Positions 1 through 27,440 of a stretch of DNA of 27,542 nt are shown piece by piece (the first letter of the stretch is position 1; every line of letters begins with the position of its first letter). The notes beneath the pieces were generated by a model. That model worked only from the letters and a program-made list of their open reading frames with translations. It was not told the origin of the DNA and did not search any database. The DNA comes from a virus. Where the stretch lies: IMG/VR virus record IMGVR_UViG_3300006919_000335, positions 1 through 27,542 of that record, one strand, 5' to 3'. The position numbers and the translations under genes were made by a program.

Positions 1-2861
1 TAATTGTAGGAGGCAGCATCTTTTGTAGGAAAGACAATAGCTGCTACATCAGTATTTCCATCTCTATTTATAGTTAAAGTCCCACCACTAGCACTAGTAT
101 TACTATTAATTGTTAAATTTTGCACAAAAACATCCCCACTAGCACTTATAACAGAGGCTGAGATTGAGGCAGAAGTGATTGCTCCTACAGTAGTTACTTG
201 TTGTAGGTTTTGAGGGTCTCCACTACCACCACCCCCACCATAAGAACCAGTGTGGAAGAATTGACCTGTAGTAGTATTAACCATTACGGTATTGTAAGCA
301 GCTCCAGCAGCATCACTAGTATCAGCATATATATTACCACTTGCGCTTATGTCACTAGAAGCTGTGATAGATGTGTCAACTAAAACTGCTCCAAAATTTT
401 GAATTCTTAATTGATTTATACTAGAGTTATAAAGAAGGGTTTTGTTAGCACCTTGTGCCCCAAAAATTACTCTACCAGTTCCATCACTTGCTGATGTAAC
501 TAAACCATTACGAACTGTCATATAGGCTGTATCACTTGCAGGATATTCTATTCTTACTTTATCATCTGCTATAAACTGAGGAATATAAAGTCCAGCACCT
601 GGGGAAGGGTTGGATAATATCCACCCTGATTTATATCCAATAACACCATCTTCAGGAAGTCCCAATCGAAGAGCAAGTTCTGTTTGGGATCCAGTTGTAG
701 CAATTACTAAACCTGTGTTGGATCCTGTTTCTCCTACTAGTAAACCACCACTTGCAGTAATTGAAGCTGAAGTTTCGTTTCCTATAGTAGTTACTTCTTG
801 GAGGTTTTGGTCAGTTCCTCCTCCACTACCATAAGAGCCAGTGTGAGTGATTAAACCTGTGGTAGTGTCAATTACTAGAGCAGCTCGTGTAGCAGTACCA
901 TCATCGTAATCAGTAAGGGCATATATGTTACCACTTGCACTTACGCTACCACTAACTGTTAATTTTTCTCCAGGAAATTTTTCACCAATTCCTACATAAC
1001 CATTTGAACCAGTTATTACAAAATCTAAATTAGTGTCAAACCCTTCGTCTCTAGCTATAATAAATGAACCTGATTCTTGGACTGTACCTAAAGATACATT
1101 TGTAAGAGGAGCATCGGAATTTTCAAAGTGGATGTAAACATCATCTTCTCCACCATTTTGAGAACGCATTTCAAATTTAGCACTACCATTAGTTCTAAAT
1201 TGTAATGTAGTACTTGTTAAATCTAAATATCGGATATCATTAGATCCATCAGTTCCACCTGTTAACCTCCACCCATTTTCTCCTGTTATAATGTTTTTAG
1301 ATGTTCCTTTAATATGTATAGAACTTCCGGAGATGTTGCCACTTGCACTAATTATAGATGAGGTAATAGAGGTAGTATTTACATTAGGTACTGTTAGTAT
1401 TTCTGTACCTGGGTTGTAAGTTATAAGGTTAGACTGATCTATACCAAGAGCTTGATATCCATTATAAGTGCTATTAGTCCCTAAAATAAGGGGACGCTCT
1501 TGGCTGGTAAAAGGTTGGATGTTTGCTACTGAAGAAGAAAATCCAAAAATAGCAACATTAGCTGTGGTTGCCCACGAAGCTGTGCCTATTAAATTTGTTC
1601 CTGCTGCACTTGCACTTACAATAGAAGCTGTTATGGCATTTGTAATGGGACCATTAATAGTAATAGATGAACCTTTAAGGTTTGTTACAATATTAGTGTT
1701 TCCTATTTGGGCAATATTACTAGCATCTATGCCTAATAAGTTTCGTGTAGTAGTAGTATCGGCTTGGGTTCCTGCAAAATATGTAGCGTTATCTAATACT
1801 ATTCTACCACCAAAGGAAGTATCGCTTGTCCCACTTGAGCTAATAAACCCAGGAATACTTACTAATCCTGAAGAGGATAGGATTAAACTAGCTGTTTCAG
1901 CATTTTGAAATACTGTATAAAAGTGCAAACCAGCTGTTGCACTACTTCCAGCTGTGTATGCACCATCTCTTTCAGAAGAAATTCTACCAGCATTTGCGGT
2001 TCCACTTCCTTGTATAAATTTAAGAGAAACACTAGGATCTATACCTGTAGATTGATTTTTTATGGTAAGGGCTGTAAAATCTCCAGTTGAGGAGGAGTTA
2101 ATGAGTGCTTCTCCATTAGTTACATACCCAGATGATGTGATATCATTAATTTCAAGATCTCCACTACCACTAATAGAACCTAAACTAGGATAAAATGTTA
2201 TTGTTTCACCATTAATTGCATTAGTACCTAAGTGAAGTCCATCTGTTTTTTGGTATAAGTAAAAATCAGGGGAACCATCATATTCTTCAAACCAAATGTA
2301 TGGTCTTAAACTTTTTAAATGAAGACCTCCCTGTGAAGTATCAGAAGCTGTGATAAGTAATTTAACTGTATCACCCCCTCCTGTATCCCCTTGGATAGTT
2401 ACTGTAAAAGGATCTCCACTACCTAAAGCCGAAAGATTAACTAAATTATCACTAAGTGTAATTTTAGTGTCGCTATTACTATGTTGAATACCTGAACTAG
2501 CTGAGATCCAAGTAGCGGAGATATCTCCAGCAACTGTTAAATTACCTGGGTTAGGGGTAAAAGTTATATTTGGGGTAATATATACATCAGTTGGGTTAGT
2601 ATTATCACCTAGTAATATACGTTTAGCAGTAGAAGCAACTGTTGAAGTTGTAGCAATATCATCAGCAGTGCCACCTCCACCACCACCACTTCCATAAGAT
2701 CCAGTATAATAAATAGCACCTCCAGTTCCAACTACTAATACTTTTTCAGTTGCAGGATCCCCGGGAGAGACATCAAGACCCGAAGCAGTAAGAGCATTTA
2801 CATATGCGTTACTGCCTGAGAGGAGGACTTTTCGCCATTGGGGAACTACGGGATCTGCCAT
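1..2861 (-). CDS. Tail fibre / adhesin-like protein (3' end outside window)
   Basis: The frame is open from an ATG at 2861 to the left edge: 953 codons with no stop, so the C-terminus is missing. The N-terminus carries the motif WRKVLLSGSN (about residues 9-18), shared with the two fibre genes upstream, followed by a Gly-rich linker (TGSYGSGGGGGG). The rest is low in Cys and Lys and rich in Ser, Thr, Gly, Asn and Ile, with many SASGNI-type beta-repeat units. This composition is typical of trimeric phage fibres. Two long modules near the 3' end are internal repeats (see repeat entries). Its own conserved box lies 16 bases before the ATG. A role in host attachment is inferred from composition and from its place at the end of the baseplate/fibre cluster. 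No chaperone or peptidase domain is visible in the part present. Confidence 0.75.
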   Translation of the reverse strand, partial: MADPVVPQWRKVLLSGSNAYVNALTASGLDVSPGDPATEKVLVVGTGGAIYYTGSYGSGGGGGGTADDIATTSTVASTAKRILLGDNTNPTDVYITPNITFTPNPGNLTVAGDISATWISASSGIQHSNSDTKITLSDNLVNLSALGSGDPFTVTIQGDTGGGDTVKLLITASDTSQGGLHLKSLRPYIWFEEYDGSPDFYLYQKTDGLHLGTNAINGETITFYPSLGSISGSGDLEINDITSSGYVTNGEALINSSSTGDFTALTIKNQSTGIDPSVSLKFIQGSGTANAGRISSERDGAYTAGSSATAGLHFYTVFQNAETASLILSSSGLVSIPGFISSSGTSDTSFGGRIVLDNATYFAGTQADTTTTRNLLGIDASNIAQIGNTNIVTNLKGSSITINGPITNAITASIVSASAAGTNLIGTASWATTANVAIFGFSSSVANIQPFTSQERPLILGTNSTYNGYQALGIDQSNLITYNPGTEILTVPNVNTTSITSSIISASGNISGSSIHIKGTSKNIITGENGWRLTGGTDGSNDIRYLDLTSTTLQFRTNGSAKFEMRSQNGGEDDVYIHFENSDAPLTNVSLGTVQESGSFIIARDEGFDTNLDFVITGSNGYVGIGEKFPGEKLTVSGSVSASGNIYALTDYDDGTATRAALVIDTTTGLITHTGSYGSGGGTDQNLQEVTTIGNETSASITASGGLLVGETGSNTGLVIATTGSQTELALRLGLPEDGVIGYKSGWILSNPSPGAGLYIPQFIADDKVRIEYPASDTAYMTVRNGLVTSASDGTGRVIFGAQGANKTLLYNSSINQLRIQNFGAVLVDTSITASSDISASGNIYADTSDAAGAAYNTVMVNTTTGQFFHTGSYGGGGGSGDPQNLQQVTTVGAITSASISASVISASGDVFVQNLTINSNTSASGGTLTINRDGNTDVAAIVFPTKDAASYN
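165..355 (-). repeat. Intragenic repeat module, copy B (fibre gene)
   Basis: It encodes SASGNIYA, a stretch ending NTTTGQF, TGSYGGGGG, then QNLQQVTT and SASISAS. The order and spacing match copy A at about 750-955. DNA similarity is obvious over the TGSYG and QNLQ parts. Boundaries are approximate. Confidence 0.7.
750..955 (-). repeat. Intragenic repeat module, copy A (fibre gene)
   Basis: It encodes SASGNIYA, IDTTTGLI, HTGSYGSGGG, QNLQEVTT, then SASITASGG, in the same order as copy B at about 165-355. A shorter related element (TGSYGSGGGGGG) occurs once more near the N-terminus, around 2665-2710. Boundaries are approximate. Confidence 0.7.
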
Positions 2862-2877
2862 ACTTTATTCGTTTCTT

Positions 2878-2885
2878 ATAAATAT
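2878..2885 (-). promoter_or_regulatory. Conserved AT box before partial fibre gene
   Basis: Minus strand AATATTTATA (core ATATTTAT), 16 bases before the ATG at 2861. It lies in the 25-base gap after the 55-aa gene and is one of 12 such boxes. Confidence 0.55.
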
Positions 2886-2886
2886 T

Positions 2887-3054
2887 TTATTTTTGAAGAG
2901 GGGGTGGTGGTGGAACTTCTTGAAGTTTAGTATAATTTCCCTCTAATTTAGATAAAACATTAGAAACAAAGTGGACATTTTTACCTTGTACGGTGGAATT
3001 GTGAACTGCCGAAATTAAAAAGGCATATTCATTTAAATCTAATTTGACATTCAT
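2887..3054 (-). CDS. Small helical protein, unknown function
   Basis: A 55-residue protein starting MNVKLDLNEY. A longer in-frame start at 3120 exists but would place the conserved box (3072-3079) inside the gene and overlap the preceding fibre gene, so I chose 3054. It is predicted mostly helical and ends in a run of five prolines. It aligns without gaps to the 62-aa protein at 6953-7141 over about 35 residues (V.L....E...LI......T...K....V......KL), with roughly 10 identities and matching hydrophobic positions. Both sit directly before a fibre gene. Function is unknown; a fibre-assembly or regulatory helper is only a guess. Confidence 0.65.
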   Translation of the reverse strand: MNVKLDLNEYAFLISAVHNSTVQGKNVHFVSNVLSKLEGNYTKLQEVPPPPPLQK

Positions 3055-3071
3055 AACATTTAATTTTGTAT

Positions 3072-3079
3072 ATAAATAT
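3072..3079 (-). promoter_or_regulatory. Conserved AT box before 55-aa gene
   Basis: Minus strand TATATTTATA, 17 bases before the ATG at 3054. The box is itself palindromic (TATAT-TT-ATATA in part). It lies in the 44-base gap after the 791-aa fibre gene. Confidence 0.5.
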
Positions 3080-3098
3080 ATTAATTCAATTAAAAATG

Positions 3099-5474
3099 TT
3101 AACCCATAGTATAGATCCACACATTGCTATCAGATCCTGCAGGATCTTTATCTCGATCTACATACCAAGTTCCTAAACTATCTATAGCTGATACATCTCT
3201 TAAGTAAGTATTATTGGAGGCTGGGGTATCATTAGTTTTGATTCTAACTTGAGATAGGAAGCCGTTAAAAGCACTTCCTGTGGCAGTATATATATTCCCC
3301 GAAAAAATGTCTTGTTCGTCCCATTCTACATCTCCTTTAGTTACACCCCACCCTATTTCACTAAATTCAGGATCATTAGCCCCTAAAGCTCTTGAATAAT
3401 AAACCGCAGCCCCCTTAGCATTAGCATTCCCAGCATCAGAAGAAGTTTGTATAATAATCCCTCCATTATCTCTACTAAAAGGATATGTTGTTGCACTTCC
3501 ACTATTTAATTCTATAAAGGGATCTGTGGTTTGGAATTCACCCGCCCAAATTGAAGATATATTTGAACTAGATATAACTGTAAGGTTGCCTGCTACTAAA
3601 ACCGATCCTGTAATATTTCTATTGTTAGGAAACACATACCCTTGCCTGAAATCTAGGATACCGACATTATCTGGGGGGGTATTGTTGTATTTAACATCTA
3701 CTGCGGTATTAGTTGTAGGAGTACCAGTTTGGGAAACTGCTAAAGTACCTTGCGAAAGAACTGTGTTAAAATTAATAAATCCAGAAGAAGTTAAGGCATA
3801 ACTAGTGTCTACATCAATAATAGTACGATCATTAAAGTTACGGTAATTTAATCCTAAACCCGGTAATGAGCTAGTAAGTTGTAATTTACCATCTTGTCCA
3901 ACTAATCCAGTAAATGAAAGACCACTGGAATCATCAAGGTCTATAGATGCTGTACCTGTTCCCCCACTTCCAAATGTACCTGCTAGACCATTAGCTGTGA
4001 AAGTATCTGTTAATCTAAGCTGGTCAGAAACAATATTAATTCCTAATTGTCCCGGATCTATAGTTATATCAATTTGTTCTTTATTAGTCCCCGTAAAGTC
4101 TAAGTTAGTAGTACCCCCTTGAGCTAACCCATCAGCTAATTCGAGTCCTCCTGCATTTGTACCATCTTCAAATCCTCCTCCAAATATAAAAGAATCACTA
4201 ACGCTTTCAAGTTGAAGGCCTGATTTGTTTATAGCACCTGTAGAGGTACCTAAGGTAGTCATAGGATATAACCTAAGACTCATAGTAGTAGGAGCATTTC
4301 CTACAAAATTAGTTACAACAGAACCATTTTCATCTATAAAGATGAGTCCATCTCCTCGGGTTAATGCTTTATCTACAGGAAGATCATTTAATACTACTCC
4401 CGTTAGTGATCCTGAATATCCTCCATATACATCTCCTATAAAGCTTCCTGTAAGGTTTCCAGTAAATTGGGGTCCAACTTCGGCTGTTGAACCTGTTATT
4501 TCAAATTTAAAAGGACCTACAGCAAGTTGGTCTGGGGGGGTTTGATACCCTATACTATAATCTTCGTGGCCTCTAATTCTAAGTTGCCATCTTTGTCCTG
4601 CCATAATACCATCATATGTGGTACTATCTATTTCAAACGAACCTGTAAAAGAAGCAGAATAGGGAGAGGTTGTAGAAGGCCAATCAAATTGATCTCTAAA
4701 ATCTATATCATCTGCTATAATTTCACTTGAGTCTACATACTCAGGATCACCACTACTATACACAAACCATCTTCTTAAAGTGATAGCAATATCTTTCCCC
4801 CCTGATCCATAAGCACCTGTAAAAATAATTGGGATTTGGAATGAAGCTGTAATACCTGTACCTACAGGCATCCCTCTAGTAAATTCTATATAATCCCCAA
4901 TATCTGTAGAAAGATATGTAGTGTTTTCAGGAGTAGAAGTATAACTACCAGTAAAAGCTATAGGAAAAGGATCAAACGCTTCACCAGGTAATTGAAAACT
5001 AGCTGTATCTCCTGGTTCAGGGCCCTCTAGTTTGGACCCAGACCTGATTTGACTGTTTATAGTAGTTTGTTGGAAGCCTCCAAATTCTAATGTAGGTTCA
5101 TAAGCTATACTAGAAGTACGTTCAAATCCCCCATAAGTATTATTTTTAAATAAAGCTGGGAAGCTTATAACACCATCTTCAGGAATTGGTTGGGGTGATC
5201 CTACTGTAGATGAAGAAATAGAAGAGTTAGGAACATTGACTGAATGAGAGGCAATATTATTACCAACGTTAATTAAGTAAGTTGAATCATAAGTATTTTC
5301 AAAAACAATACTACTACTAGCTTGCCACCCTCCAGTAATAGGATCTCTAAATATAATTGATTTAGAAGTATTTGCCTCATCTAGAATTCCTAAATCTACA
5401 GAAGAAGTTAAAGAATATACTTCCAGATTAGAACCTGAAATTAGTACTTTTTTCCATTGTGGTGTTCCTGGCAT
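3099..5474 (-). CDS. Tail fibre / adhesin-like protein
   Basis: A 791-aa protein. The N-terminus has WKKVLISGSN (residues 7-16), the motif shared by three fibre genes here. The middle is beta-rich with units such as SSGLSFTG and SSLPGLGLNY. The C-terminal third has a pattern (ELNSGS, then GGIIIQTSS, a Tyr-rich step and a GWGV motif, ending WIYTMG) that parallels the C-terminal third of the 486-aa protein just upstream, so the two look like paralogues. It starts 3 bases after that gene's stop and has no AT box, so it is probably co-transcribed with it. I infer a virion surface fibre; no enzyme motif is visible. Confidence 0.75.
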   Translation of the reverse strand: MPGTPQWKKVLISGSNLEVYSLTSSVDLGILDEANTSKSIIFRDPITGGWQASSSIVFENTYDSTYLINVGNNIASHSVNVPNSSISSSTVGSPQPIPEDGVISFPALFKNNTYGGFERTSSIAYEPTLEFGGFQQTTINSQIRSGSKLEGPEPGDTASFQLPGEAFDPFPIAFTGSYTSTPENTTYLSTDIGDYIEFTRGMPVGTGITASFQIPIIFTGAYGSGGKDIAITLRRWFVYSSGDPEYVDSSEIIADDIDFRDQFDWPSTTSPYSASFTGSFEIDSTTYDGIMAGQRWQLRIRGHEDYSIGYQTPPDQLAVGPFKFEITGSTAEVGPQFTGNLTGSFIGDVYGGYSGSLTGVVLNDLPVDKALTRGDGLIFIDENGSVVTNFVGNAPTTMSLRLYPMTTLGTSTGAINKSGLQLESVSDSFIFGGGFEDGTNAGGLELADGLAQGGTTNLDFTGTNKEQIDITIDPGQLGINIVSDQLRLTDTFTANGLAGTFGSGGTGTASIDLDDSSGLSFTGLVGQDGKLQLTSSLPGLGLNYRNFNDRTIIDVDTSYALTSSGFINFNTVLSQGTLAVSQTGTPTTNTAVDVKYNNTPPDNVGILDFRQGYVFPNNRNITGSVLVAGNLTVISSSNISSIWAGEFQTTDPFIELNSGSATTYPFSRDNGGIIIQTSSDAGNANAKGAAVYYSRALGANDPEFSEIGWGVTKGDVEWDEQDIFSGNIYTATGSAFNGFLSQVRIKTNDTPASNNTYLRDVSAIDSLGTWYVDRDKDPAGSDSNVWIYTMG

Positions 5475-5477
5475 ATC

Positions 5478-6938
5478 TTAAGCGTATATATAAACTGAGC
5501 TTTCGTTTGTAGCTGGGGCTGTAGTTATTATAAGTTGACCCTGTTTATCACTATCATTAGATCCAAAAGTAGGGGTTGAGACTAATACAGTAGCTTCGGG
5601 ATCAGAAGTAATTTTAGTAGTTACTAGTGCCGTAGCATTACTTCCTGTAACTGAAAGGTTTGTTGTAGTAACGGCAACGTTATCTACACTTACTCCCCAC
5701 CTTTGAGCATCAGAATCATAAAACATAAATGCTCCATTACCTGACCCTTGGCTTACAATAAAACCACCATCTCCTGTGTTGGAACCACTATTTAAAAGTA
5801 TAAATTGGTCCGCTATATTTAAGTTTTCGGTTTCAAATGAAGCACTTACAAGAGATCCTGTGACTGTAAAATTTCCTTCAACATATAAATCCCCTTGGAA
5901 AGTAAAATCACCAGTAAGAGTAGTGTTTAAATCATATGTAAATGTAGGATTATCAATTAAATTAGCTTCAAAACCACCAGGAACAGCAGTACCATCACTA
6001 GTTAAAAGTATATTAGTAGAACCAGTTTTAAAAGTTACAGTAGCTGAAGATGTAACTACAAAGGATGGGTCGATTTCTAATTCATCGTATTGACCTGCAT
6101 CTGCCCATTGCAACCCATCTCCTGGGAGAGTAGATACTAAACGAAGCTCGCCATTGGGGGAAGAACCAGCAAGTGTTAGACCACTGTTTGTAGCTAAATC
6201 TACACTTAGGACACCAATAGAATAAGCTAAACCATCTCCTGCTATATTACTATTTATAGTTAAACCACTACTTCCTGTGTCTAGCCCTGAGTTGGGGGCT
6301 AGGTTAATACTCATAGTTGAGTAGTTATTAGTAGAAGCACTTGGAAAATACAAACCTGCCCCTGCTAAAGAAGAAGCTAATTTTAATCCACCACCACTAA
6401 ATTCTAAACCACCGTTAGAAGCAGTATAAACTGTAACAGTAACCGCATCTGTACCATTATATGAAAAATCTTCTCCTGAGGAAGAAATAATACCATTAGC
6501 ATTAGTAAGAGGGTTAGGTAATGTACCTACTACTCCTGTTAACCCCGAACCATCTCCTGTAAAACTTCCAGAAAAAGTACCATCTATAAATTGAATTTGA
6601 TTAGTATCAGCATCATAAAATAAACTACTAGTAGCTTGTAATCCTCCGTGGGAGGGGTGCCAAAATAATATTTGTGAATTATCTTGAACATTATTAGGAG
6701 TACCTGAGGCTGAGATATTGTAGGTTGTGAGACCAATATTATCTAAGTAAAGTTGACCCCCATTACTAGAAGTATATTTTACATTAAAATCAGATCCAGA
6801 GCTAAAAAATCTTCCTGTAGAACTGTGTCTAAAAACAACTTCAGTGTCTTCAGATATTGCTCCCATTACGGAAGCAGTAATTGCAGCTACGTGAGCATTA
6901 GAACCCGATATTAATATTTTTCTCCATTCAGCTGACAT
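5478..6938 (-). CDS. Tail fibre / adhesin-like protein
   Basis: A 486-aa protein beginning MSAEWRKILISGSN. The middle holds repeats of the form NSGL..GSSGL.I.S.LAGDGL, typical of beta-structured fibre shafts. The C-terminal part (ILLNSGSN, GGFIVSQGSGNGAFMFY, RWGVSV, ending VYIYA) mirrors the C-terminus of the next gene. It starts 14 bases after the 62-aa gene and most likely shares its transcript. Attachment function is inferred from composition, paralogy and position. Confidence 0.75.
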   Translation of the reverse strand: MSAEWRKILISGSNAHVAAITASVMGAISEDTEVVFRHSSTGRFFSSGSDFNVKYTSSNGGQLYLDNIGLTTYNISASGTPNNVQDNSQILFWHPSHGGLQATSSLFYDADTNQIQFIDGTFSGSFTGDGSGLTGVVGTLPNPLTNANGIISSSGEDFSYNGTDAVTVTVYTASNGGLEFSGGGLKLASSLAGAGLYFPSASTNNYSTMSINLAPNSGLDTGSSGLTINSNIAGDGLAYSIGVLSVDLATNSGLTLAGSSPNGELRLVSTLPGDGLQWADAGQYDELEIDPSFVVTSSATVTFKTGSTNILLTSDGTAVPGGFEANLIDNPTFTYDLNTTLTGDFTFQGDLYVEGNFTVTGSLVSASFETENLNIADQFILLNSGSNTGDGGFIVSQGSGNGAFMFYDSDAQRWGVSVDNVAVTTTNLSVTGSNATALVTTKITSDPEATVLVSTPTFGSNDSDKQGQLIITTAPATNESSVYIYA

Positions 6939-6952
6939 GTGTTAAATTGGTA

Positions 6953-7141
6953 TTATTGTTGGTGATATTTTTCAGTTTCGTCTATACAAGTTTGTAACTT
7001 GTAAATTAAATCATAAACTACTTGAATATCTTTAATTTTACAAGTACCTTCTGCTAATAGAGGAATTAAAACTTCACATTCGTGTCCACTAAGTAATACT
7101 TTGGGTTCAGATGCTTTTTGTCTTATTGATTTTTGATCCAT
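6953..7141 (-). CDS. Small helical protein, unknown function
   Basis: A 62-aa protein with helical character and two Cys residues (around 37 and 56 by eye). It resembles the 55-aa protein at 2887-3054 without gaps over about 35 residues and, like it, is followed directly by a fibre gene. It has its own AT box 18 bases upstream. I do not recognise a family. A helper for fibre folding or a small structural part are both possible; nothing in the sequence decides it. Confidence 0.65.
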   Translation of the reverse strand: MDQKSIRQKASEPKVLLSGHECEVLIPLLAEGTCKIKDIQVVYDLIYKLQTCIDETEKYHQQ

Positions 7142-7159
7142 AACGTTTGTGTTTTATGT

Positions 7160-7167
7160 ATAAATAT
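7160..7167 (-). promoter_or_regulatory. Conserved AT box before 62-aa gene
   Basis: Minus strand TATATTTATA, 18 bases before the ATG at 7141, in the 29-base gap after the 161-aa gene. Confidence 0.55.
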
Positions 7168-7170
7168 ATG

Positions 7171-7656: not shown

Positions 7657-7662
7657 GTTTTA

Positions 7663-9477: not shown

Positions 9478-9498
9478 TCTTTACTTGCTGATTTAGTT

Positions 9499-9506
9499 AT
9501 AAATAT
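9499..9506 (-). promoter_or_regulatory. Conserved AT box before 604-aa gene
   Basis: Minus strand AATATTTATA, 21 bases before the ATG at 9477. It is flanked by a 6-bp inverted repeat (GATTTA / TAAATC). Confidence 0.55.
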
Positions 9507-9510
9507 TAAA

Positions 9511-15554: not shown

Positions 15555-15590
15555 AATTGTTTTGATTTAAAATTAAAAAATTGGTTTATT

Positions 15591-15598
15591 ATAAATAT
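15591..15598 (-). promoter_or_regulatory. Conserved AT box before baseplate operon
   Basis: Minus strand AATATTTATA, 36 bases before the ATG at 15554, just after the tape-measure stop at 15605. It is the only box in front of the five-gene block 15554-9511. Confidence 0.55.
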
Positions 15599-15604
15599 TC
15601 AAAG

Positions 15605-18751: not shown

Positions 18752-18755
18752 GTTA

Positions 18756-18763
18756 ATAAATAT
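18756..18763 (-). promoter_or_regulatory. Conserved AT box before tape measure gene
   Basis: Minus strand AATATTTATT, only 4 bases before the ATG at 18751 and directly after the poly-T end of the hairpin at 18772-18797. A promoter -10 at this spacing would give an almost leaderless mRNA. Confidence 0.5.
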
Positions 18764-18771
18764 TTAAAAAG

Positions 18772-18797
18772 AAAAAGCATCACTGGGATGCTTTTTT
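18772..18797 (-). terminator. Rho-independent terminator-like hairpin before tape measure gene
   Basis: A perfect 10-bp stem (plus strand AAAAAGCATC and GATGCTTTTT) with a 5-base loop. On the minus strand the stem is followed by T5-C-T5. Because both arms end in A/T runs it could act in both directions. It overlaps the stop codon of the 84-codon frame (18780-18782), so termination would occur right after that gene. Confidence 0.7.
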
Positions 18798-19034
18798 CAT
18801 ATTAGTCGAATAAGTAGGTGACTTTGCTTGTGCGTTTTTTTCCGCTTCTTGCCTAGCAGCCCCCTGAAGCCAGCTTTGGGTTGCTTCTTCTTGTTGTGAA
18901 TTGTTTTTCTTATCGTAAAATTCTTTTATTTTATGAAAGGTAAATTTACGAAGCCACGTAGGCATATTATAAACATCACTCCAAGAATACCCTCCCTGTC
19001 CGTGAAATACAATTTCATGTATTTGAGTAAACAA
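18780..19034 (-). CDS. ATG-less reading frame before tape measure; candidate frameshift extension of the gp26-like gene
   Basis: 84 codons from a TTG at 19034. There is no ATG near the N-terminus; the first in-frame one is within NMPTW. It is the only gene here without an ATG, and it has no AT box. The frame stays open upstream to a TAG beside the T7 run and overlaps the end of the gp26-like gene in the +1 (= -2) frame. The protein has IHEIVFHGQGGYSWSD, NMPTWLRKF, then a charged helix. The 'W, MP, R' pattern recalls the T part of tail-assembly chaperones. It may be made from TTG or, as I favour, as a 97-residue extension by frameshifting at 19074-19080. It lies between tube and tape measure, exactly where such chaperones map. 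Confidence 0.65.
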   Translation of the reverse strand: MFTQIHEIVFHGQGGYSWSDVYNMPTWLRKFTFHKIKEFYDKKNNSQQEEATQSWLQGAARQEAEKNAQAKSPTYSTNMKKASQ

Positions 19035-19059
19035 ATTTTGACGGACTAGGGGTGCCGCC

Positions 19060-19803: not shown

Positions 19804-19824
19804 TTTGTATAACTTTGTTTTGAT

Positions 19825-19832
19825 ATAAATAT
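19825..19832 (-). promoter_or_regulatory. Conserved AT box before gp26-like gene
   Basis: Minus strand TATATTTATA inside a perfect 6-bp inverted repeat (plus GATATA-AA-TATATC), 21 bases before the ATG at 19803 and directly after the hairpin at 19843-19870. Confidence 0.55.
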
Positions 19833-19842
19833 ATCGAGAAAT

Positions 19843-19870
19843 AAAGAAGCGCACTTTCGTGCGCTCCTTT
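19843..19870 (-). terminator. Rho-independent terminator-like hairpin after tail tube gene
   Basis: A 12-bp stem with a GAAA tetraloop on the minus strand (GC core AGCGCAC / GTGCGCT, then one G-U, one G-C and three A-T pairs). A T-rich stretch, TTCTTTATTTC, follows. It lies 21 bases past the tube gene's stop at 19892. It is the most GC-rich intergenic element in the window. Confidence 0.75.
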
Positions 19871-19891
19871 TATATAATATTTTGGCTTATA

Positions 19892-20380: not shown

Positions 20381-20397
20381 TTTTGTTGTTTTTGATT

Positions 20398-20405
20398 ATA
20401 AATAT
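20398..20405 (-). promoter_or_regulatory. Conserved AT box before tail tube gene
   Basis: Minus strand AATATTTATA, 17 bases before the ATG at 20380, in the 66-base gap after the sheath gene. The rest of the gap is AT-rich with no convincing hairpin. Confidence 0.55.
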
Positions 20406-20446
20406 TAGAGAATCTGTTTTTTTATACTTTTAAGGTTAAACTTCTA

Positions 20447-22150
20447 TCAATCTGGGAAGGAGGCTCCTGTTGGTTGAACATTGAAGTTTAGGATGATAAA
20501 TTCAGCAGTTCTAGTTGGTTGGAGGTAAACCTGACCCACTAATTCATTTCTGTCAATTACCGCTGCTGAGTTTAATGACTCATCCATAACAACCTTAAAC
20601 GCATATAGACCTTGTCTTTGTTGAACTGATTCAAGATATGGGTTTACAATTGCTAAGAAATTATTTCTAGTAGCTTGTGTGTTTGGTTCAAATACTATAT
20701 TACCAGCTTGTGAATCCAAGAATTGTTTGATGTTAATCAACAATCTTCTAACGTTGATACGGTCAAGAGCTGAGGCTTTAGTTTGAAGTGTTTTCTGACC
20801 AAATACTACAACACCTGCGTTAGGGAAGGCAGTAATTGGGTTAATTTTACCTGCATAAAGAGTATCTCTATCTGTTTTAGTAAGAGATTTTTGAGCTCTT
20901 ACTACTGTTGGGAGAGCACCTCTATTTAAACCTGCAGGTGCGAACCAAGGCTCACCTACACTATCGTTGTAGGCAAACACACCAGCAATAAATGTTGAAG
21001 GTGGTGCCCAGTTTAATTTACCAAGAGCAGGATCACTAGCTAACAACCATGGGAAGTAAGCAGCCGCATAAGAGTTATTAATTGATGCCGCTGTAGAAAC
21101 TGCAGATGATACACTTAAATCTGTATAGTCTTGGAGATCAATTACAGCAATTGAATCTGCTCTATCCTTAGTGTTTGTTAATAAAATATCTAATGGGGTG
21201 CTGTGGTCTGTGTAGTTCAAACCAGGAGCAGCAATTGAGGTATATTTGTAAGCTGTATCGTTCAATAGGTAGAATGAAGCTGTGTAGTCACTACCAGAAA
21301 CACCACAAATGTTGGTTGGGGTAATATCTTTACCGAAGAGAGCACCTGCTACTAATGCACCAGTACCACCATTAAATGAACCACTACCTGCAGAAGGAAC
21401 ACTAGCAGTATATGCTGAGACTCTTACATTACCTAAGCTATCAGAATAGTTTGGAGTATCATTTATATCAGAAACATAAACATAATTACTTACAGTTGGA
21501 TATTCACCATTAACCTGGGTGTAAACATTAGCTCCGGTTCCTGAAGTTGAAAGGTATTGAGTACCTACTGCTTTACCAATATAATTGTCGTCAAATGGAT
21601 CAAGAGTTACATTGTTATATTGTTCAAGGATAATCTTGTTATTAGTATCATCATCACCTCTTCTAATTATTAAGTTAAATGTACCTGATGAAGTGTTAGG
21701 GTTGGTAATTTCATATCTAATATTAAGTTTAGATCCGCTTGCCAACAAACCACCAGAATTTTCAGAGCCAGTACTATTTTGATCAGCACCCGCTGAAATG
21801 GTGTTTAGTTTAAATGATACTGTTGAACCTGAACCAGCAACAGAAGCTGAAGCTGCAGTATAGGCACCTCGCACAACTCTACTAACTAAAAGGCTTTCAC
21901 CTCCGTTGTTAAAGTAGTTATAAGCTGCTGTTGAGTTGAAGAATGAATAGGTGCTGCTACCACTATCAATAGTATCACCAAATTTAGCCACATATCCTGC
22001 GTATGATGTTACTAATTGGGGAACATTAACTGGTCCTTTGACTGTAGGACCAACTATTGCAGCACCCGCCTGAATAATTCCATCAGGAATAAATGACTGG
22101 TCTGTTTCGTTGATATAAATACCAGGAGAGACGATGTTGTTGTTTGCCAT
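20447..22150 (-). CDS. Tail sheath protein, gp18-like
   Basis: A 567-aa protein (T4 gp18 is about 659 aa). The N-terminus VSPGIYINETDQSF and AAIVGPTVKGPVNVP are typical of contractile sheaths, where this arm links neighbouring subunits. The C-terminal domain has RRLLINIKQFLDS, FEPNTQATRNNFLAIV, and ends with RTAEFIILNF, the most conserved part of the family. The middle (about 130-330) is a variable, surface-exposed beta domain. The protein forms the outer tail layer that contracts on infection. It has its own AT box, which touches the stop codon of the preceding small gene. Confidence 0.95.
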   Translation of the reverse strand: MANNNIVSPGIYINETDQSFIPDGIIQAGAAIVGPTVKGPVNVPQLVTSYAGYVAKFGDTIDSGSSTYSFFNSTAAYNYFNNGGESLLVSRVVRGAYTAASASVAGSGSTVSFKLNTISAGADQNSTGSENSGGLLASGSKLNIRYEITNPNTSSGTFNLIIRRGDDDTNNKIILEQYNNVTLDPFDDNYIGKAVGTQYLSTSGTGANVYTQVNGEYPTVSNYVYVSDINDTPNYSDSLGNVRVSAYTASVPSAGSGSFNGGTGALVAGALFGKDITPTNICGVSGSDYTASFYLLNDTAYKYTSIAAPGLNYTDHSTPLDILLTNTKDRADSIAVIDLQDYTDLSVSSAVSTAASINNSYAAAYFPWLLASDPALGKLNWAPPSTFIAGVFAYNDSVGEPWFAPAGLNRGALPTVVRAQKSLTKTDRDTLYAGKINPITAFPNAGVVVFGQKTLQTKASALDRINVRRLLINIKQFLDSQAGNIVFEPNTQATRNNFLAIVNPYLESVQQRQGLYAFKVVMDESLNSAAVIDRNELVGQVYLQPTRTAEFIILNFNVQPTGASFPD

Positions 22151-22175
22151 GAGTTATTCTTGTTTGTATTTTGTT

Positions 22176-22183
22176 ATAAATAT
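22176..22183 (-). promoter_or_regulatory. Conserved AT box before tail sheath gene
   Basis: Minus strand AATATTTATA, 25 bases before the ATG at 22150 and ending next to the stop codon at 22185-22187. Confidence 0.55.
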
Positions 22184-22184
22184 T

Positions 22185-22454
22185 TCAAGAGGTTTCAAGA
22201 TTAGATTCTGCTTTAATGAAAGTTCCTGAATCTAAATCTATGCTGCCATTTCCATATTTTTGTGTTAGATCTTGTCCTATTTTAATTTCAGATTTTTTAA
22301 GTTCTTCAATTTGTTCTACTAATTTTTCTTTTTGCAACTCCAATAATTGAATATTGTACTCTATTTGACCTAAAGAAGCAACAATACGATTTTGGGTTTC
22401 TTGCAACTGGATAAGAGAATTAAGCTCTTCTTGGGATAATTTTGTTTGTTCCAT
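22185..22454 (-). CDS. Small coiled-coil protein
   Basis: An 89-aa protein. Residues from about 5 to 67 form a continuous amphipathic helix rich in Glu, Gln, Leu and Lys (LQETQNRIVASLGQIEYNI, QLLELQKEKLVEQIEELKK), followed by a short polar tail. The shape recalls prefoldin-like or scaffold-like helpers. It lies alone between the gp15-like and sheath genes with its own AT box. I do not recognise a family; a chaperone for sheath or tail-completion proteins is possible but unproven. Confidence 0.75.
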   Translation of the reverse strand: MEQTKLSQEELNSLIQLQETQNRIVASLGQIEYNIQLLELQKEKLVEQIEELKKSEIKIGQDLTQKYGNGSIDLDSGTFIKAESNLETS

Positions 22455-22470
22455 AACTTTTAATTTGTTA

Positions 22471-22478
22471 ATAAATAT
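22471..22478 (-). promoter_or_regulatory. Conserved AT box before coiled-coil gene
   Basis: Minus strand TATATTTATT inside a 6-bp inverted repeat (plus TTAATA-AATA-TATTAA), 16 bases before the ATG at 22454. Confidence 0.55.
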
Positions 22479-22501
22479 ATTAAAATTTTTATAAATTAAA
22501 T

Positions 22502-23353
22502 TTAGCGTAAATTATTAGTAGTAGTCTCTTGATCAAACATAATTTTTGAAGAACTAAATACTTTTTTAGGTGATATTAAATCTTTTTGTATTACGTCTGG
22601 GATGAGATAACCTTTGAGGGTTAAATCGAATGTAGCTTTTACCGTTCTTATGTCACCTGAGGGGGTATCAGTAGACATATCAAAGGAATTGATTAAAGTA
22701 TTAAATTTAAATCTTTCAGGATCACCCCAATAAGAATTAGCAGCGTAATTTATAGCTTCTACTATTTTATTTAATTGGTCTACATAATAGGTATAAGCTA
22801 TACAGCTATAAGTAATAGTAACAAAATCAGGAATTACTATAGCATATGATTCTTTAATAGGATTAGTATCATTTAAAACATTAAACTTACTATATGCATT
22901 TGATTTTGTATAAGATTTTTGAAAATATTCAAAATGATGTAAACGGTTAGCATCTATTTTATAGTAAGTAGAATCATTTTTCATACTAGTTCTCTTTACT
23001 AAGATAAGAGGGGCCATAATTTTACCTTTAGCATCTCTATAATAACCATCTTTTTGAACATCCTTCCATTTTTCGGGGGACCCATATTTAATAGGAACAG
23101 GAATTCTTTGATTATTTTGTACTACAAAAGGTTGAATAACTTTTTCAAAATAATAAAAAATAGTTTCATCAATATCTTGAATACCTAAACTAAAAGGTTT
23201 AGTAGTATCATCTTTAAATGATATTTGTTCTCCTCTATTTAGAGCAGTTCTAGTATTAGGTTTTCCCCTACCTAACTTGTCGTAAGGTTCTATTAAACTA
23301 TTACTAATCTCTTCTTGAGATTTTGGTATAGGTATTCTTCCTTGTGTTGCCAT
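22502..23353 (-). CDS. Tail completion / sheath stabiliser, gp15-like
   Basis: A 283-aa protein (T4 gp15 is about 272). Matching features: DETIFYYFEKVIQPFVV, a VPIKYGSPEKW step, DAKGKIMAPLILVKRTS, an ITYSCIAYTYYVDQLNKIVEAINY segment (read here in parts), and a FDLTLKGYLIP near the C-terminus. In T4, gp15 caps tube and sheath and forms the surface that docks to the neck. It overlaps the gp14-like gene by one base (TAATG), as expected for partners made in fixed ratio. Confidence 0.85.
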   Translation of the reverse strand: MATQGRIPIPKSQEEISNSLIEPYDKLGRGKPNTRTALNRGEQISFKDDTTKPFSLGIQDIDETIFYYFEKVIQPFVVQNNQRIPVPIKYGSPEKWKDVQKDGYYRDAKGKIMAPLILVKRTSMKNDSTYYKIDANRLHHFEYFQKSYTKSNAYSKFNVLNDTNPIKESYAIVIPDFVTITYSCIAYTYYVDQLNKIVEAINYAANSYWGDPERFKFNTLINSFDMSTDTPSGDIRTVKATFDLTLKGYLIPDVIQKDLISPKKVFSSSKIMFDQETTTNNLR

Positions 23354-23862
23354 TATAATCTTTCTTTAGTTATTCCTAATAAATCTCCAGGCATATAATT
23401 AGTGTTACACACAACTGAGAAGTTAGCTCCAAAATTTTCTAATCCGGGGTTAAGGGGATTAGCATTATTTGGATAATCTGGGTTTTTGCCTACTATATAT
23501 TGGTTTGAATTTATGTTATTAACTTCGTAATATCCGTTTTGATATAAAATTATATCACCAACTTCAGGTACTACATTAGCATCTACTAAATCTTCCCTTA
23601 AGAATCTAAACTCAATTCCCCATTTAAAATCTATACCTAAATCACTTTCAGGATATTCTTGATCTTGTCTTGCAATTAATGCATTAAATAAATAAGGACC
23701 TTCTAAGTATCTACCCGAGGAAGCTTCACCATAAATATTAACTGTAGTTTGAGATAAATTATGTTTGTAAAAAGCACATTGTTGAGTTATAATATCCCCC
23801 ATCAACTCACGGTTAATGGTTGTGAATAAATTTATATCACGGGATTTTCCAAATAATGCCAT
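23353..23862 (-). CDS. Neck protein, gp14-like
   Basis: A 169-aa protein (T4 gp14 is about 256 aa, so this is a shorter form). It has DINLFTTINRELMGDII, a TTVNIYGEASSG motif, FKWGIEFRFLREDL and a VPEVGDIILYQNGYYEV strand, a set I associate with gp14-type neck proteins of marine T4-like phages. It would help seal the packaged head and present the docking site for the tail. TAATG overlaps join it to the genes on both sides. One copy of the AT-box core lies inside it (23731-23738), probably by chance. Confidence 0.75.
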   Translation of the reverse strand: MALFGKSRDINLFTTINRELMGDIITQQCAFYKHNLSQTTVNIYGEASSGRYLEGPYLFNALIARQDQEYPESDLGIDFKWGIEFRFLREDLVDANVVPEVGDIILYQNGYYEVNNINSNQYIVGKNPDYPNNANPLNPGLENFGANFSVVCNTNYMPGDLLGITKERL

Positions 23863-25013
23863 TAGCCAATAAAAATTGTAAAGGGTACGTTATTTAAATC
23901 CTTTTGTAAAAACTCAGCTTCTTGTGCTTTTTTTTCTAATAATTTATTCCTAGAAGTTTCTTCAAGGTATGCCCTTAATCTTTCAATTAATGCTGTTTTT
24001 TCAGCAGTTGCTGCTGTGATAAGATCTCCATGGTTTAAAGTAACCTCAGCATTAGGGATAGGAACAGTTCCATACTTACCTCTTATATACCCTAACATTT
24101 CTTTACATAATGCTAAAGTATATTCAAAAATCCATTGTCTACCAATTGAATTAATATATGAATAAGTTGGGTTAGCATAAGGTACAGTTGAAATATCTGT
24201 TACAACTCCAGTTCCTAAACTACCAGAAACAACAGGATTATTCCTATCAGATTTTAAAACATATTTAAAATATAATTTTTCGCTTCTAGTAGGTATAGGG
24301 AATATTCTGATTTTATTGTTAACTAATTCAAAACTATAATTAGATTTTCTAACCATATCATTAAATTCAATGGCTTGAAGTTTACCTAAATCATAGTTAA
24401 TAGGCATTAGTAAGAAATTGATGCCTGGGGTATAGTTACCAAATCCAAAAGCGTCTAATAATCCTTGTACATCTGTGCCGGTACCAGCATAAGGGTCAAA
24501 ATATCTTACAATTGAAGGAGGGGCTTGATAGAATATTTCTTTAACTTCAATATTAGCTTTTTCTATACTTTCAGAAGTAGCAAATTCTTGTAAATCATAA
24601 ACTTGAGTTCCAGCTGTCATTTGAATGCTGCCTGTTCTGTATTCAACAGAGCCCCCAACACCTGCTTCACTACCGTATTGTTCTGCTATTCTAATTACAG
24701 TTCCTAAGTTAGGTTGTTGTAATTTATAATTTAAATTAGAACCTGTGATTGAACCTTCAAGGGATAAATAATTTTGAGATGCTTGATAAGCAAATACTTC
24801 ATTACCGTATGTAGTTACTGCTTCTTCAAATGCTGCATAAAAGTTAATGTCTTGTAATTCTACATCAGTAAGAGGATACCCTAAACGACGAGAACAAAAT
24901 ACTGCTACTTTATCAGCGTCAGTTTGGAAGTCAGTGTCGTTATCATAAAATCCAAAAGGTGTGTTGCCAGGAAAAAACGAGCTAGAGCCCGGCCAGATTG
25001 CTGCATTTGCCAT
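23862..25013 (-). CDS. Neck / head completion protein, gp13-like
   Basis: A 383-aa protein (T4 gp13 is about 309). The early block CSRRLGYPLTDVELQDINFY followed by AFEEAVTTYGNEVF is typical of gp13 and related head-completion proteins. The middle includes MPINYDLGKLQAIEF and a KIRIFPIPTRSEKLYFKYV strand pair, and the C-terminus is a long helix (TAATAEKTALIERLRAYLEE). It would bind the portal after DNA packaging together with the gp14-like product. It heads a three-gene coupled unit with an AT box 11 bases before the ATG. Confidence 0.8.
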   Translation of the reverse strand: MANAAIWPGSSSFFPGNTPFGFYDNDTDFQTDADKVAVFCSRRLGYPLTDVELQDINFYAAFEEAVTTYGNEVFAYQASQNYLSLEGSITGSNLNYKLQQPNLGTVIRIAEQYGSEAGVGGSVEYRTGSIQMTAGTQVYDLQEFATSESIEKANIEVKEIFYQAPPSIVRYFDPYAGTGTDVQGLLDAFGFGNYTPGINFLLMPINYDLGKLQAIEFNDMVRKSNYSFELVNNKIRIFPIPTRSEKLYFKYVLKSDRNNPVVSGSLGTGVVTDISTVPYANPTYSYINSIGRQWIFEYTLALCKEMLGYIRGKYGTVPIPNAEVTLNHGDLITAATAEKTALIERLRAYLEETSRNKLLEKKAQEAEFLQKDLNNVPFTIFIG

Positions 25014-25024
25014 GTTGTTTTCTT

Positions 25025-25032
25025 ATAAATAT
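25025..25032 (-). promoter_or_regulatory. Conserved AT box before neck operon
   Basis: Minus strand AATATTTATA, 11 bases before the ATG at 25013. It sits within a perfect 8-bp inverted repeat (plus TTTTCTTA at 25018-25025 and TAAGAAAA at 25033-25040). Confidence 0.55.
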
Positions 25033-25054
25033 TAAGAAAATCAAACAGAATTAC

Positions 25055-26323
25055 TTAAAAGGTTTTATTTAAAACAAAAAGTTTAGAATATATAGAATTT
25101 CCGGTATTATTAAATTGAGCTGTAATATCTAATTTATTAGAAATAGTAGTAGTAAAAGTTGTATTATTTTCATCACTAAAGTTTACACCCACAAAATCAG
25201 TAGAAGCATCTTTAGTATAAAAGAATTGTCCTGCTGATAGGATAGAAGCAGTTCCTGTTTTTCCAATTGCATAGACTGTGAAATCTATTTGCATTCTCCA
25301 TCTAGTACCCGTGGCATTAGCTAATGTTATAGGACCTGTGGAAGTTAATAATGTAGTTCCTGTTTTACCTCCGTTAATTCTAATTGCTAGAATATCATTA
25401 TTTTGAAAAGTACATACCCCAGCCATAACTACTCTAAAAGAATCTCCTACTTGAAACCCATTTGCCGGAACAGATAAGGTTCCAGCTCCTCCATCAATTA
25501 AGCTACCTGCTGTGATCCCAGTTACAGGGGTGCTTGAACCAGTTTGAGCAAACAACCCATAATTAAATGGAAAATATCCAGGAAGGGAAGATATAGGGAT
25601 TTCTGTGTTTTGGTTGTTTGAATTTCCAACCCAAATATAATTTTCTGTTAAAGAGGAAGTAAGTGTGTTAGATATTATTTCTCCACTTGCACTTATATTT
25701 GAAGCTGTTATAGATGTAAAAGGTTGTTCTACATTAGTTGCTAAAATATATGAAGCACTTGTAGCATTAGCTACATTATCAATGGTTAATATAAATTGGC
25801 TTCCATCTCCTTTAGTAAAATAAACTCTATCACCTACTCCAACATTAGATGCTGTGATGAGAAATGAGCCTGTGTCTATAGGAGTTGTTTCTATTTCTAC
25901 ATTAAATGTATCTCCATTACCTTTAGTAAAGGTTAAGTTAGGATTAGAATAAGAGGCAGTTATTAATAATGAACCTGTATCTTGAACACTACCAGAAGGA
26001 CCTTGTGGTCCTGTGTCTCCTTTAGGACCTTGGGGACCTACAGTATTAACATTAACAATACTAGTAATACCTTGGTTTACTGTTATTGTTTTTCTTAAAT
26101 CTGTTACTGTAATACCATTGCTAGGAGGGATATTTATACCAACTGTGGTAGGAGTTAATGAAGTATTAACTACATTATCAGATACAGTTATAGTATTAGA
26201 TGCTCCTTTATTTACTGTAATAGAGGTATTATCCCCAGAATTTACACTTACTGTTTTTGTAGATTGGGGAGTAATTACAACTTGATTAGTTGTAGTAGAT
26301 ACATTTACAGTATTAGATGACAT
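25055..26323 (-). CDS. Collagen-like virion fibre protein
   Basis: A 422-aa protein in three parts. The N-terminal 90 residues are Thr/Val/Asn-rich beta repeats. Residues about 95-111 hold five collagen triplets (GPQ GPK GDT GPQ GPS G). After a Ser/Thr-rich shaft with an ISASGEI unit comes a C-terminal domain of about 170 residues (FQVGDSFRVVMAG, ILAIRINGG, RWRMQIDFTVYAIG, ending FVLNKTF) that looks like a jelly-roll tip domain found in phage and giant-virus surface proteins. It begins one base after the preceding stop. Such proteins form trimers; I infer a head or neck fibre from its place next to neck genes. Confidence 0.75.
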   Translation of the reverse strand: MSSNTVNVSTTTNQVVITPQSTKTVSVNSGDNTSITVNKGASNTITVSDNVVNTSLTPTTVGINIPPSNGITVTDLRKTITVNQGITSIVNVNTVGPQGPKGDTGPQGPSGSVQDTGSLLITASYSNPNLTFTKGNGDTFNVEIETTPIDTGSFLITASNVGVGDRVYFTKGDGSQFILTIDNVANATSASYILATNVEQPFTSITASNISASGEIISNTLTSSLTENYIWVGNSNNQNTEIPISSLPGYFPFNYGLFAQTGSSTPVTGITAGSLIDGGAGTLSVPANGFQVGDSFRVVMAGVCTFQNNDILAIRINGGKTGTTLLTSTGPITLANATGTRWRMQIDFTVYAIGKTGTASILSAGQFFYTKDASTDFVGVNFSDENNTTFTTTISNKLDITAQFNNTGNSIYSKLFVLNKTF

Positions 26324-26324
26324 A

Positions 26325-26723
26325 TTAATAAGGTCCTTCTGTAACTTCTGGGAGTAGTTTAATTGATCCTTCTATTAATCTAGTGACTATGGGGTATACA
26401 CTGCCTGTTACTATTTCTAAGTCATAAGCTGCTTCATTAAAATCTAATAATGAAGATGAATTGGCTGAAATATAAATCCCAATAGTGCCTGAGGTTGGGG
26501 GGTTTAATCCTGTTGATCCACTCATATTAAGCCCAGTACCATCATCAGCTAAACTAGAGGATAAAGTAAGATATACTGTTTCAGAACCCTTACTAGGGCG
26601 AATTTGCATTCTAGCTTGATAATCAGTTAAATCTATAGGATCTCCATTTGAATCTTTGTAAGAAATTTCAAAATCTACAGTAGATCCTTGTTCAATAGCA
26701 AATGAGTATTTTCCAGCAGCCAT
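26325..26723 (-). CDS. Small beta-rich virion protein (BppU N-terminal-like)
   Basis: A 132-aa protein. Pattern: YSFAIEQGSTVDFEISYKD, DPIDLTDYQARMQIR, GTIGIYISANSSS, then YDLEIVTG and RLIEGSIKLLPEV. This order is common in short structural proteins of tailed phages and resembles the N-terminal domain of the lactococcal baseplate protein BppU. In T4-like marine phages such proteins lie next to fibre genes and may anchor the fibre. It is probably co-transcribed with the collagen-like gene, from an AT box 11 bases upstream. Exact location in the virion is unknown. Confidence 0.7.
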   Translation of the reverse strand: MAAGKYSFAIEQGSTVDFEISYKDSNGDPIDLTDYQARMQIRPSKGSETVYLTLSSSLADDGTGLNMSGSTGLNPPTSGTIGIYISANSSSLLDFNEAAYDLEIVTGSVYPIVTRLIEGSIKLLPEVTEGPY

Positions 26724-26734
26724 ATTTTTTATTC

Positions 26735-26742
26735 ATAAATAT
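26735..26742 (-). promoter_or_regulatory. Conserved AT box after phoH
   Basis: Minus strand AATATTTATG, 11 bases before the ATG at 26723, overlapping the last base of the phoH stop. It lies in a perfect 8-bp inverted repeat (plus ATTTTTTA at 26724-26731 and TAAAAAAT at 26743-26750). Confidence 0.5.
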
Positions 26743-27440
26743 TAAAAAATAGGATTATCTTCATAATAATTTCTTAAATCCTCTACAATTTCATTACGGT
26801 GATTAGACGTAAGTGTAATACCTGCTAGATTTTTAACTTTACGAGATGCCTTGTATAAATATTTAAAACCTGAGTCTGCTTTTTTCTTAAGATCAATTTG
26901 GTGATCATCACCACATACTATCATTTTTGAACGTAAACCTAAACGTGTTACAATCATTTCCATTTGTTCATGTGTTACGTTTTGGGCTTCGTCTACAATA
27001 ACACATGAATCTAAAAATGTTCTACCCCTCATAAATGATACAGGTACAATTTCTATTTTACCTTCTTCAATAAATTTTTCAACTTTAACTTTATCGTAAA
27101 GTGAAAATAAATTTTGGTAAATAGGTTGAACCCAAGGATCCATTTTTTCTCTAAGATCGCCTGGTAGAAAGCCGATTTCCTCCTTTGAGACGGTTGGTCT
27201 TGTAATGATAATTTTTTCGTAAATTCGCCTTAGTAACCCGTCTAGAGCTACCTGACATGCTAATAATGTTTTCCCTGAACCTGCCTGACCTGCTAATAAA
27301 GTAACTGTGTTGTCCAATATAGTTTGTTTAGCTTCCTTTTGCTCCTCGTTTAGTTGTATTTTAAATTTTATAGGATTTTTCACTACTCTTTTTTCTCTGA
27401 AGATATCTTCAGCTTCGGGGGTGTTGTTGAAATGGGTCAT
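26742..27440 (-). CDS. phoH: PhoH-family P-loop ATPase
   Basis: A 232-aa protein. Walker A is GQAGSGKT (residues 51-58), Walker B is VIVDEAQN (147-154), followed by the VCGDDHQID motif (175-183) and an SNHRN with R215, the arginine region of this superfamily-1-like ATPase. PhoH is one of the commonest auxiliary genes of marine phages; related bacterial proteins act on RNA as ATPases or helicases, and its role in infection is unsettled. The start at 27440 is set by an in-frame TAG a few codons upstream. It overlaps the preceding partial frame by 32 bases and has no AT box, so it may be read from a transcript that starts outside the window. Confidence 0.93.
   Translation of the reverse strand: MTHFNNTPEAEDIFREKRVVKNPIKFKIQLNEEQKEAKQTILDNTVTLLAGQAGSGKTLLACQVALDGLLRRIYEKIIITRPTVSKEEIGFLPGDLREKMDPWVQPIYQNLFSLYDKVKVEKFIEEGKIEIVPVSFMRGRTFLDSCVIVDEAQNVTHEQMEMIVTRLGLRSKMIVCGDDHQIDLKKKADSGFKYLYKASRKVKNLAGITLTSNHRNEIVEDLRNYYEDNPIF

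Follow-up and report, generated by a model that had tools for sequence, protein, structure and literature searches.

An AT-rich box ahead of virion genes in a family of uncultured T4-like phages: a probable late promoter element and a candidate sigma factor

Introduction

The late promoters of bacteriophage T4 carry a box about one helical turn before the transcription start, show no conservation at -35 and are AT-rich downstream (PMC2988020), while those of KVP40, 44RR and S-PM2 were reported to be highly similar to the T4 consensus when read in sense (PMC2988020). In Flavobacterium, the -7 element of sigma-A promoters covers -12 to -5 and is followed by 4-5 nucleotides (nt) to the start (PMC9723704, PMC6847099). 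Here we describe an AT-rich box, ATATTTAT, in a 27,542-nt stretch of viral DNA (IMG/VR record IMGVR_UViG_3300006919_000335, the whole of which is called the window below) that represents the neck/tail module of a contractile-tailed phage, with sheath, tube, hub, tape measure and PhoH genes. The box is very probably the on-switch of the virion genes in this virus family, and it is probably recognised by the product of an overlooked sigma-factor-like gene of these viruses.

Results

The box in the intergenic gaps of the window

With gene calls that use ATG starts, the window contains 13 gaps of at least 15 bases, and ATATTTAT is present on the gene (minus) strand in 12 of these. No box is found at junctions that overlap or measure 14 bases or fewer, which agrees with a preliminary description of this DNA in which junctions overlapping or under 15 bases were said to be box-free; the 12 gap copies and two coding copies (at 23731 and 26855) listed there were likewise all recovered. 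The total is thus 14 copies on the gene strand as against one on the opposite strand, at 26130. The further statement that every gap longer than about 20 bases holds a box needs qualification, as the thirteenth gap, of 94 bases (18966-19059, bordering a doubtful 61-residue open reading frame at 18780-18965), has none and the shortest box-bearing gap measures 18 bases. Similarly, the extended form WATATTTATA fits nine of the 12 gap copies, the exceptions being those at 18756, 22471 and 26735. Under a first-order Markov model built from the dinucleotide make-up of the gaps themselves, 0.25 copies are expected in the gaps, with a maximum of 3 in 5,000 simulations, a value that replaces the earlier estimate of 0.1. 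The pattern is strongly non-random and strand-specific. Scanned for generic sigma-70 promoters, the window gave results at about chance level, and a comparison of box orientation at divergent genes was uninformative, the genes on the other strand being too few.

The box in related viruses

The same pattern is repeated in 80 IMG/VR contigs that carry a sheath gene related to that of the window. A search of their gaps that ranks gap-enriched 8-mers without reference to the original finding again placed ATATTTAT first, with 358 copies on the gene strand and 8 on the opposite strand against 2.3 expected from coding DNA. The strand bias extends to whole records, in which ATATTTATA is distributed 32:4, 18:0, 13:0, 11:0, 19:2, 11:1 and 10:1, and a box lies within 120 nt of the sheath gene in 56 of 62 loci. 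The nearest isolate found, Flavobacterium phage immuto, has a ratio of 16:1 and a tail module syntenic with the window, clear orthologues sharing roughly 32-60% protein identity. The box-bearing family is one of uncultured viruses, most of which probably have Bacteroidetes hosts. In G001 (155 kb; L094-L101), the longest of 23 sheath-bearing contigs to which the sigma profile described below was applied, the gaps before 9895, 28094 and 64552, mostly late gaps, contain a variant box, TATGTATAA, in place of TATTTATAA.

The preliminary description had likened the box to the -10 element of T4 late promoters in the opposite orientation to the genes. The likeness holds only for the reverse complement, in which nine of the 12 gap copies contain TATAAATA. 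T4-type late promoters firing antisense would account for this. However, the equivalent count on the T4 late region, made as a control, returned TATAAATA in sense as the top 8-mer, and TATTTATA is absent from the gaps of that region, so that the box is not a T4 promoter facing backwards. Nor are there genes in that direction to be served, and the start-like bases and terminators described below suit the direction of the genes. We attach a very small probability to antisense firing.

Architecture of the box and its surroundings

The logo of 375 boxes reads [A.91/C.09]TATTTAT-A.78-A.83-n-A.63-R-A.87, where the first T of TATTTAT is numbered 0 and the purine (R) and the final A fall at positions 11 and 12. 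In boxes at least 18 nt from the ATG, position 11 is a purine in 95% (A.67, G.28) and position 12 an A in 89%; since they are retained at this distance, these positions are fixed to the box and not to the ATG. Loci retrieved by way of another protein (the gp118-query loci, L104-L183; see below) have AA at these positions in 26 of 34 cases. Given the spacings of T4 late and Flavobacterium sigma-A promoters, the conserved A stands at the position where a start is expected, and the purine/A pair downstream of the core looks, from its sequence, like a transcription start. No element is apparent at -33/-35, the information content being at most 0.13 bits at every position in the stretch that lies between 45 and 6 bases ahead of the core.

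The distance from box to ATG is not tightly constrained, most values falling between 1 and 44 nt. Of 384 gaps, 49 contain an intrinsic terminator no more than 70 nt upstream of the box and one contains a terminator downstream of it; among 284 gapless junctions, two have a terminator. These terminators bear on the proposal that the box is an RNA processing site which divides a long late transcript into units. Such a role would be in keeping with the occurrence of the box mostly in gaps, and in T4 the 5' ends determined by primer extension do not distinguish initiation from processing (PMC2988020). Terminators directly upstream would, however, leave little transcript to cut, which disfavours processing, and the presence of the box tracks that of the sigma-like gene introduced below. 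Processing is accordingly considered highly improbable.

Partition between virion and early modules

In immuto, the gaps of the early-looking module of hypothetical genes contain a host-type motif, TTG-N20-TAT[A/C]TTTAGGTAT, with a strong -33 element, the class being written TTG-N20-TATATTTAG. Of the 33 gaps in the virion module, 21 have the box and 4 the host-type motif; of the 32 in the early module, 1 has the box and 18 the host-type motif (box, Fisher p=1.3e-7; host-type motif, p=2e-4). The two motifs show a matching partition in G001 (p=0.008 and 0.009), all of these p values being descriptive because the limits of the modules were drawn post hoc and on gene content. The promoters in the early module of G001 (135,900-155,027) have an upstream element of GGCTTACA type which replaces the TTG of immuto, together with a similar -7 box, TATATTTAC.

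This partition also helps to weigh the possibility that the boxes are ordinary host sigma-A promoters, that is variants of the -7 element TAnnTTTG with constitutive or early activity. Indeed, the early promoters of the phage itself have ATATTTA as part of their -7 box, and the host -7 element shares the TA start at -12/-11. Yet the box, with its logo TATTTATA, does not match TAnnTTTG in that no conserved G follows the TTTA, and the -33 TTG about 20 nt ahead, present in the immuto early promoters, is absent. T is depleted two bases before the core, and the box segregates from host-type promoters by module. Host sigma-A promoters are hence a very unlikely account of the boxes.

A candidate sigma factor in the relatives

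A scan of immuto with the PHROG family of T4 gp55 (phrog_234) gave a single weak match (E=0.008), gp118 (78174-78872), which is annotated as hypothetical. The gp55-like sigma gene that the preliminary description proposed to look for thus has a candidate among the relatives, but not on the window contig itself. Genome searches with PF04542 and phrog_12791 yielded no match (for PF04542, none at E<=1), the gp118 family did not reach the cut-off of a curated sequence profile, and nothing relevant came up when the sigma alignment was compared with the sequences of solved structures. The family is nevertheless large and conserved, with at least 600 matching stretches in IMG/VR.

Predicted structures are more informative. 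Two predicted models of gp118, one by AlphaFold2 from 27 relatives (predicted local distance difference test, pLDDT, 77) and one from a broader alignment (pLDDT 81), superpose on sigma region 2 with a root mean square deviation of about 2.4-3.2 A over 84-105 residues, gp55 being among the best. For the first model the best aligned chain is T4 gp55 in the open complex (7d7c_F; Z 9.6, 126 residues); for the second, sigma factors make up nearly all structural matches listed, gp55 (7d7c_F) scoring Z 9.9 and region 2 aligning at about 2.4-3.0 A over 84-97 residues. Taken alone, Z values of this size could arise by chance for a helical protein; the weight lies in the almost exclusive presence of sigma factors among the matches listed. 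The modelled structures argue for gp118 as a sigma factor more strongly than the marginal sequence matches do. Relative to gp55, the candidate has an additional C-terminal helical domain. Two members (L206:3329-4207 and L252:374-1384) carry 60-100 extra residues inside region 2, before the AKAYSYFGT segment.

Co-occurrence of sigma gene and box

The candidate sigma gene is located upstream of the baseplate genes. The gap directly 3' of it holds a box in 100 of 104 loci, whereas a box within 1.5 kb upstream of it was found in 1 of 72; the sigma factor is therefore apparently not box-driven, as would fit a regulator made before its targets. Purine-rich gaps of GAAATGAGAAA type, 110-135 nt long, lie 1-1.5 kb upstream of the gene in L210 (2208-2317), L247 (2026-2160), L250 (1982-2112) and L262 (about 1715-1847).

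Because G001 begins just downstream of the expected sigma position, loci around its baseplate wedge gene were retrieved. Among these wedge-query loci, 23 of the 25 checked contain the sigma gene together with ATATTTATA boxes; of the remaining two, L203 has a fragment of the gene, cut by the contig end, and L256 has none. In G033, a single contig, the sigma gene occurs alongside a sheath with 53% identity to that of the window and boxes distributed 31:3 by strand. Across L104-L271, the position just ahead of the core is occupied by A in the wedge-query clade (54 A : 1 C) and mostly by C in the gp118-query clade (42 A : 75 C); co-evolution of this base with the sigma factor is a lead that comes from two clades only.

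Of 50,697 phage records, three contain the sigma family: immuto, Microcystis phage Mel-JY01, which is the one other annotated isolate, and an uncultured phage of 484 kb (LR756508). The presence of the sigma gene predicts the box in Mel-JY01, and there ATATTTAT indeed ranks first among gap 8-mers (14 v 1, 0.41 expected). No such enrichment of ATATTTAT was seen in 50-kb stretches of four phages without this sigma family, T4, Cellulophaga phi14:2, Tenacibaculum PTm1 and crAss001.

Mel-JY01 is also instructive with regard to the view that the box is an RNA-level element, a translation enhancer or ribosome standby site required by genes with no overlap to the preceding one. The box always lies shortly upstream of start codons, and translation in Bacteroidetes, which do without Shine-Dalgarno sites, is tuned by A residues close to the start codon (PMC6847099). 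In Mel-JY01, however, the boxes lie upstream of separate GGAG-like ribosome sites that adjoin the ATG and thus coexist with them. The box-ATG spacing is spread over 1-44 nt while the conserved neighbours stay fixed to the box, gapless junctions have no box, and terminators precede it. A translational element is for these reasons very improbable, and both this and the processing alternative fit worse than a promoter.

Predicted units of the window

All boxes of the window discussed here, like the two terminators, are on the minus strand. The box at 2878-2885 would place the start (+1) at 2872 and give an 11-nt leader to the ATG at 2861 of a tail-fibre-like gene. For those at 3072-3079, 7160-7167, 9499-9506 and 15591-15598, the predicted starts are 3066, 7154, 9493 and 15585, ahead of ATGs at 3054, 7141, 9477 and 15554 respectively. 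The tape measure gene has its box, at 18756-18763, 4 nt ahead of the ATG (18751), and its mRNA is possibly leaderless if the start is the A of this ATG; immediately upstream of the box is an intrinsic terminator (18772-18796) with a 10-bp stem and a T-rich tail. A second hairpin of terminator type, with a 7-bp stem and T-rich tail (19848-19865), lies upstream of the box at 19825-19832 (predicted +1 19819, ATG 19803), which precedes the baseplate hub gene. Next come the boxes of the tail tube (20398-20405, predicted +1 20392, ATG 20380) and tail sheath genes (22176-22183, predicted +1 22170, ATG 22150), one at 22471-22478 (predicted +1 22465, ATG 22454) and that of the head-tail connector gene (25025-25032, predicted +1 25019, ATG 25013). 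The last box (26735-26742, predicted +1 26729) precedes the ATG at 26723 and shares bases with the stop codon of the PhoH-like gene. Predicted leaders range from 6 to 31 nt, in addition to the one possibly leaderless tape-measure mRNA. A role is unlikely for the two coding copies at 23731-23738 and 26855-26862, the latter within the PhoH-like gene. Between 10125 and 13190 (minus strand), the window encodes a 1021-residue tail protein that is related to the 'carboxypeptidase' gene of immuto and has an endolysin-like domain (phrog_2649) in its C-terminal part, at residues 857-997.

Discussion

From the distribution and logo of the box, the adjacency of terminators, the early/late partition, the sigma-like predicted fold, the conserved synteny and the co-occurrence of gene and box, we infer a promoter role, late action and reading by a protein of the gp118 family. 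Taken as a whole chain, the proposal that a gp118-family phage sigma factor reads the box as the -10 element of a late promoter is in our judgement highly likely, and a promoter function by itself is likelier still. The preliminary description had preferred such a reading, which is supported by the start-like bases, the lack of a -33 element and the upstream terminators, as well as by the concentration of boxes in virion modules, where early genes have host-type promoters instead, and by a syntenic gene of predicted sigma-70 fold that predicts the box. In the proposed mechanism, late (virion) units would begin at a class of promoters that lack a -33/-35 element and have [A/C]TATTTAT(A), read on the gene strand, as their -10 element. 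Host RNA polymerase core carrying the phage sigma-70-family factor would read the box and start at the conserved purine/A about 5 nt past the core TATTTAT, giving short A-rich leaders and, at the smallest box-ATG spacings, leaderless mRNAs. The sigma gene itself would not be among the genes under control of the box but would immediately precede the first virion operon that is.

Several observations weigh against this proposal. The sigma gene is not on the window's 27.5-kb contig, and the link from the window to it runs through relatives, which are non-independent observations; the sigma profile found no match in 23 sheath-bearing contigs, classed as linear and mostly short fragments. Matches of the family to known sigma factors are weak: PF04542 is matched by 17 of 27 members with a best E of 0.01, hhalign against the gp55 alignment gives E 0.0014 and a probability of 18% over 98 columns, and Foldseek returned no match at E<=0.001, though sigma factors fill most of its rows. 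LR756508 has the sigma family and a weak enrichment of the box, with no clear box. Some boxes precede genes that are not obviously late, such as GroES, 11 of the 33 immuto virion-module gaps have neither motif, and the immuto module limits were set after inspection of the sequence, by gene content rather than timing.

We found no description of this promoter class in the open-access literature searched, subscription papers and preprints being outside that search. With the box as a guide, transcription could be mapped by reading the sequence in a large group of uncultured T4-like phages, the majority of them probably with Bacteroidetes hosts, and a conserved 'hypothetical' gene would gain a function as a candidate sigma factor. 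The cultured phage immuto offers a matched pair of sigma factor and box for studying how a late sigma could work without the T4 clamp, and nature supplies, in the relatives, a series of sigma/box variants in which changes in -10 recognition can be studied. A bolder generalization, to which we would give slightly less than even chances, is that a widespread unannotated sigma family of gp118 type, present in hundreds of viral contigs and with a -10 code of its own, runs late transcription independently of a clamp in T4-like phages that have a family A polymerase and no sliding clamp, and that the pre-core base (A or C) changed together with the sigma clade.

Compared with described systems, the box resembles T4 late promoters (gp55, gp33, gp45) in being an 8-bp AT-rich element about one helical turn before the predicted start with no -35 element, in the AT-rich stretch downstream, in its placement before late genes and in the small phage sigma-70-family factor for which there is a candidate here. 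It differs in that the sense strand reads [A/C]TATTTAT(A) and not TATAAATA, with ATATTTAT in all 12 window gap copies, and in that the candidate sigma factor, unlike gp55, has the extra C-terminal domain and is barely recognisable by sequence. In immuto, which unlike T4 is annotated with a family A DNA polymerase, profiles for the gp45-type clamp (PF02916 and phrog_223 only; T4 control 2.9e-35) detected none, nor did they in G001 or in two other long contigs. With Bacteroidetes/Flavobacterium sigma-A promoters, to which the immuto early promoters (TTG at -33, TAnnTTTG at -7) belong in kind, the box shares a TA at -12/-11 if the start is the conserved A, but it has no -33 element, and TATA replaces TTTG at -8 to -5. 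Variation of the first box positions by lineage is known from the late promoters of KVP40, 44RR, S-PM2 and the Aeh1 variant (PMC2988020) and recurs here, although the core differs from theirs. By these comparisons the box would work like a T4 late promoter without being one by sequence.

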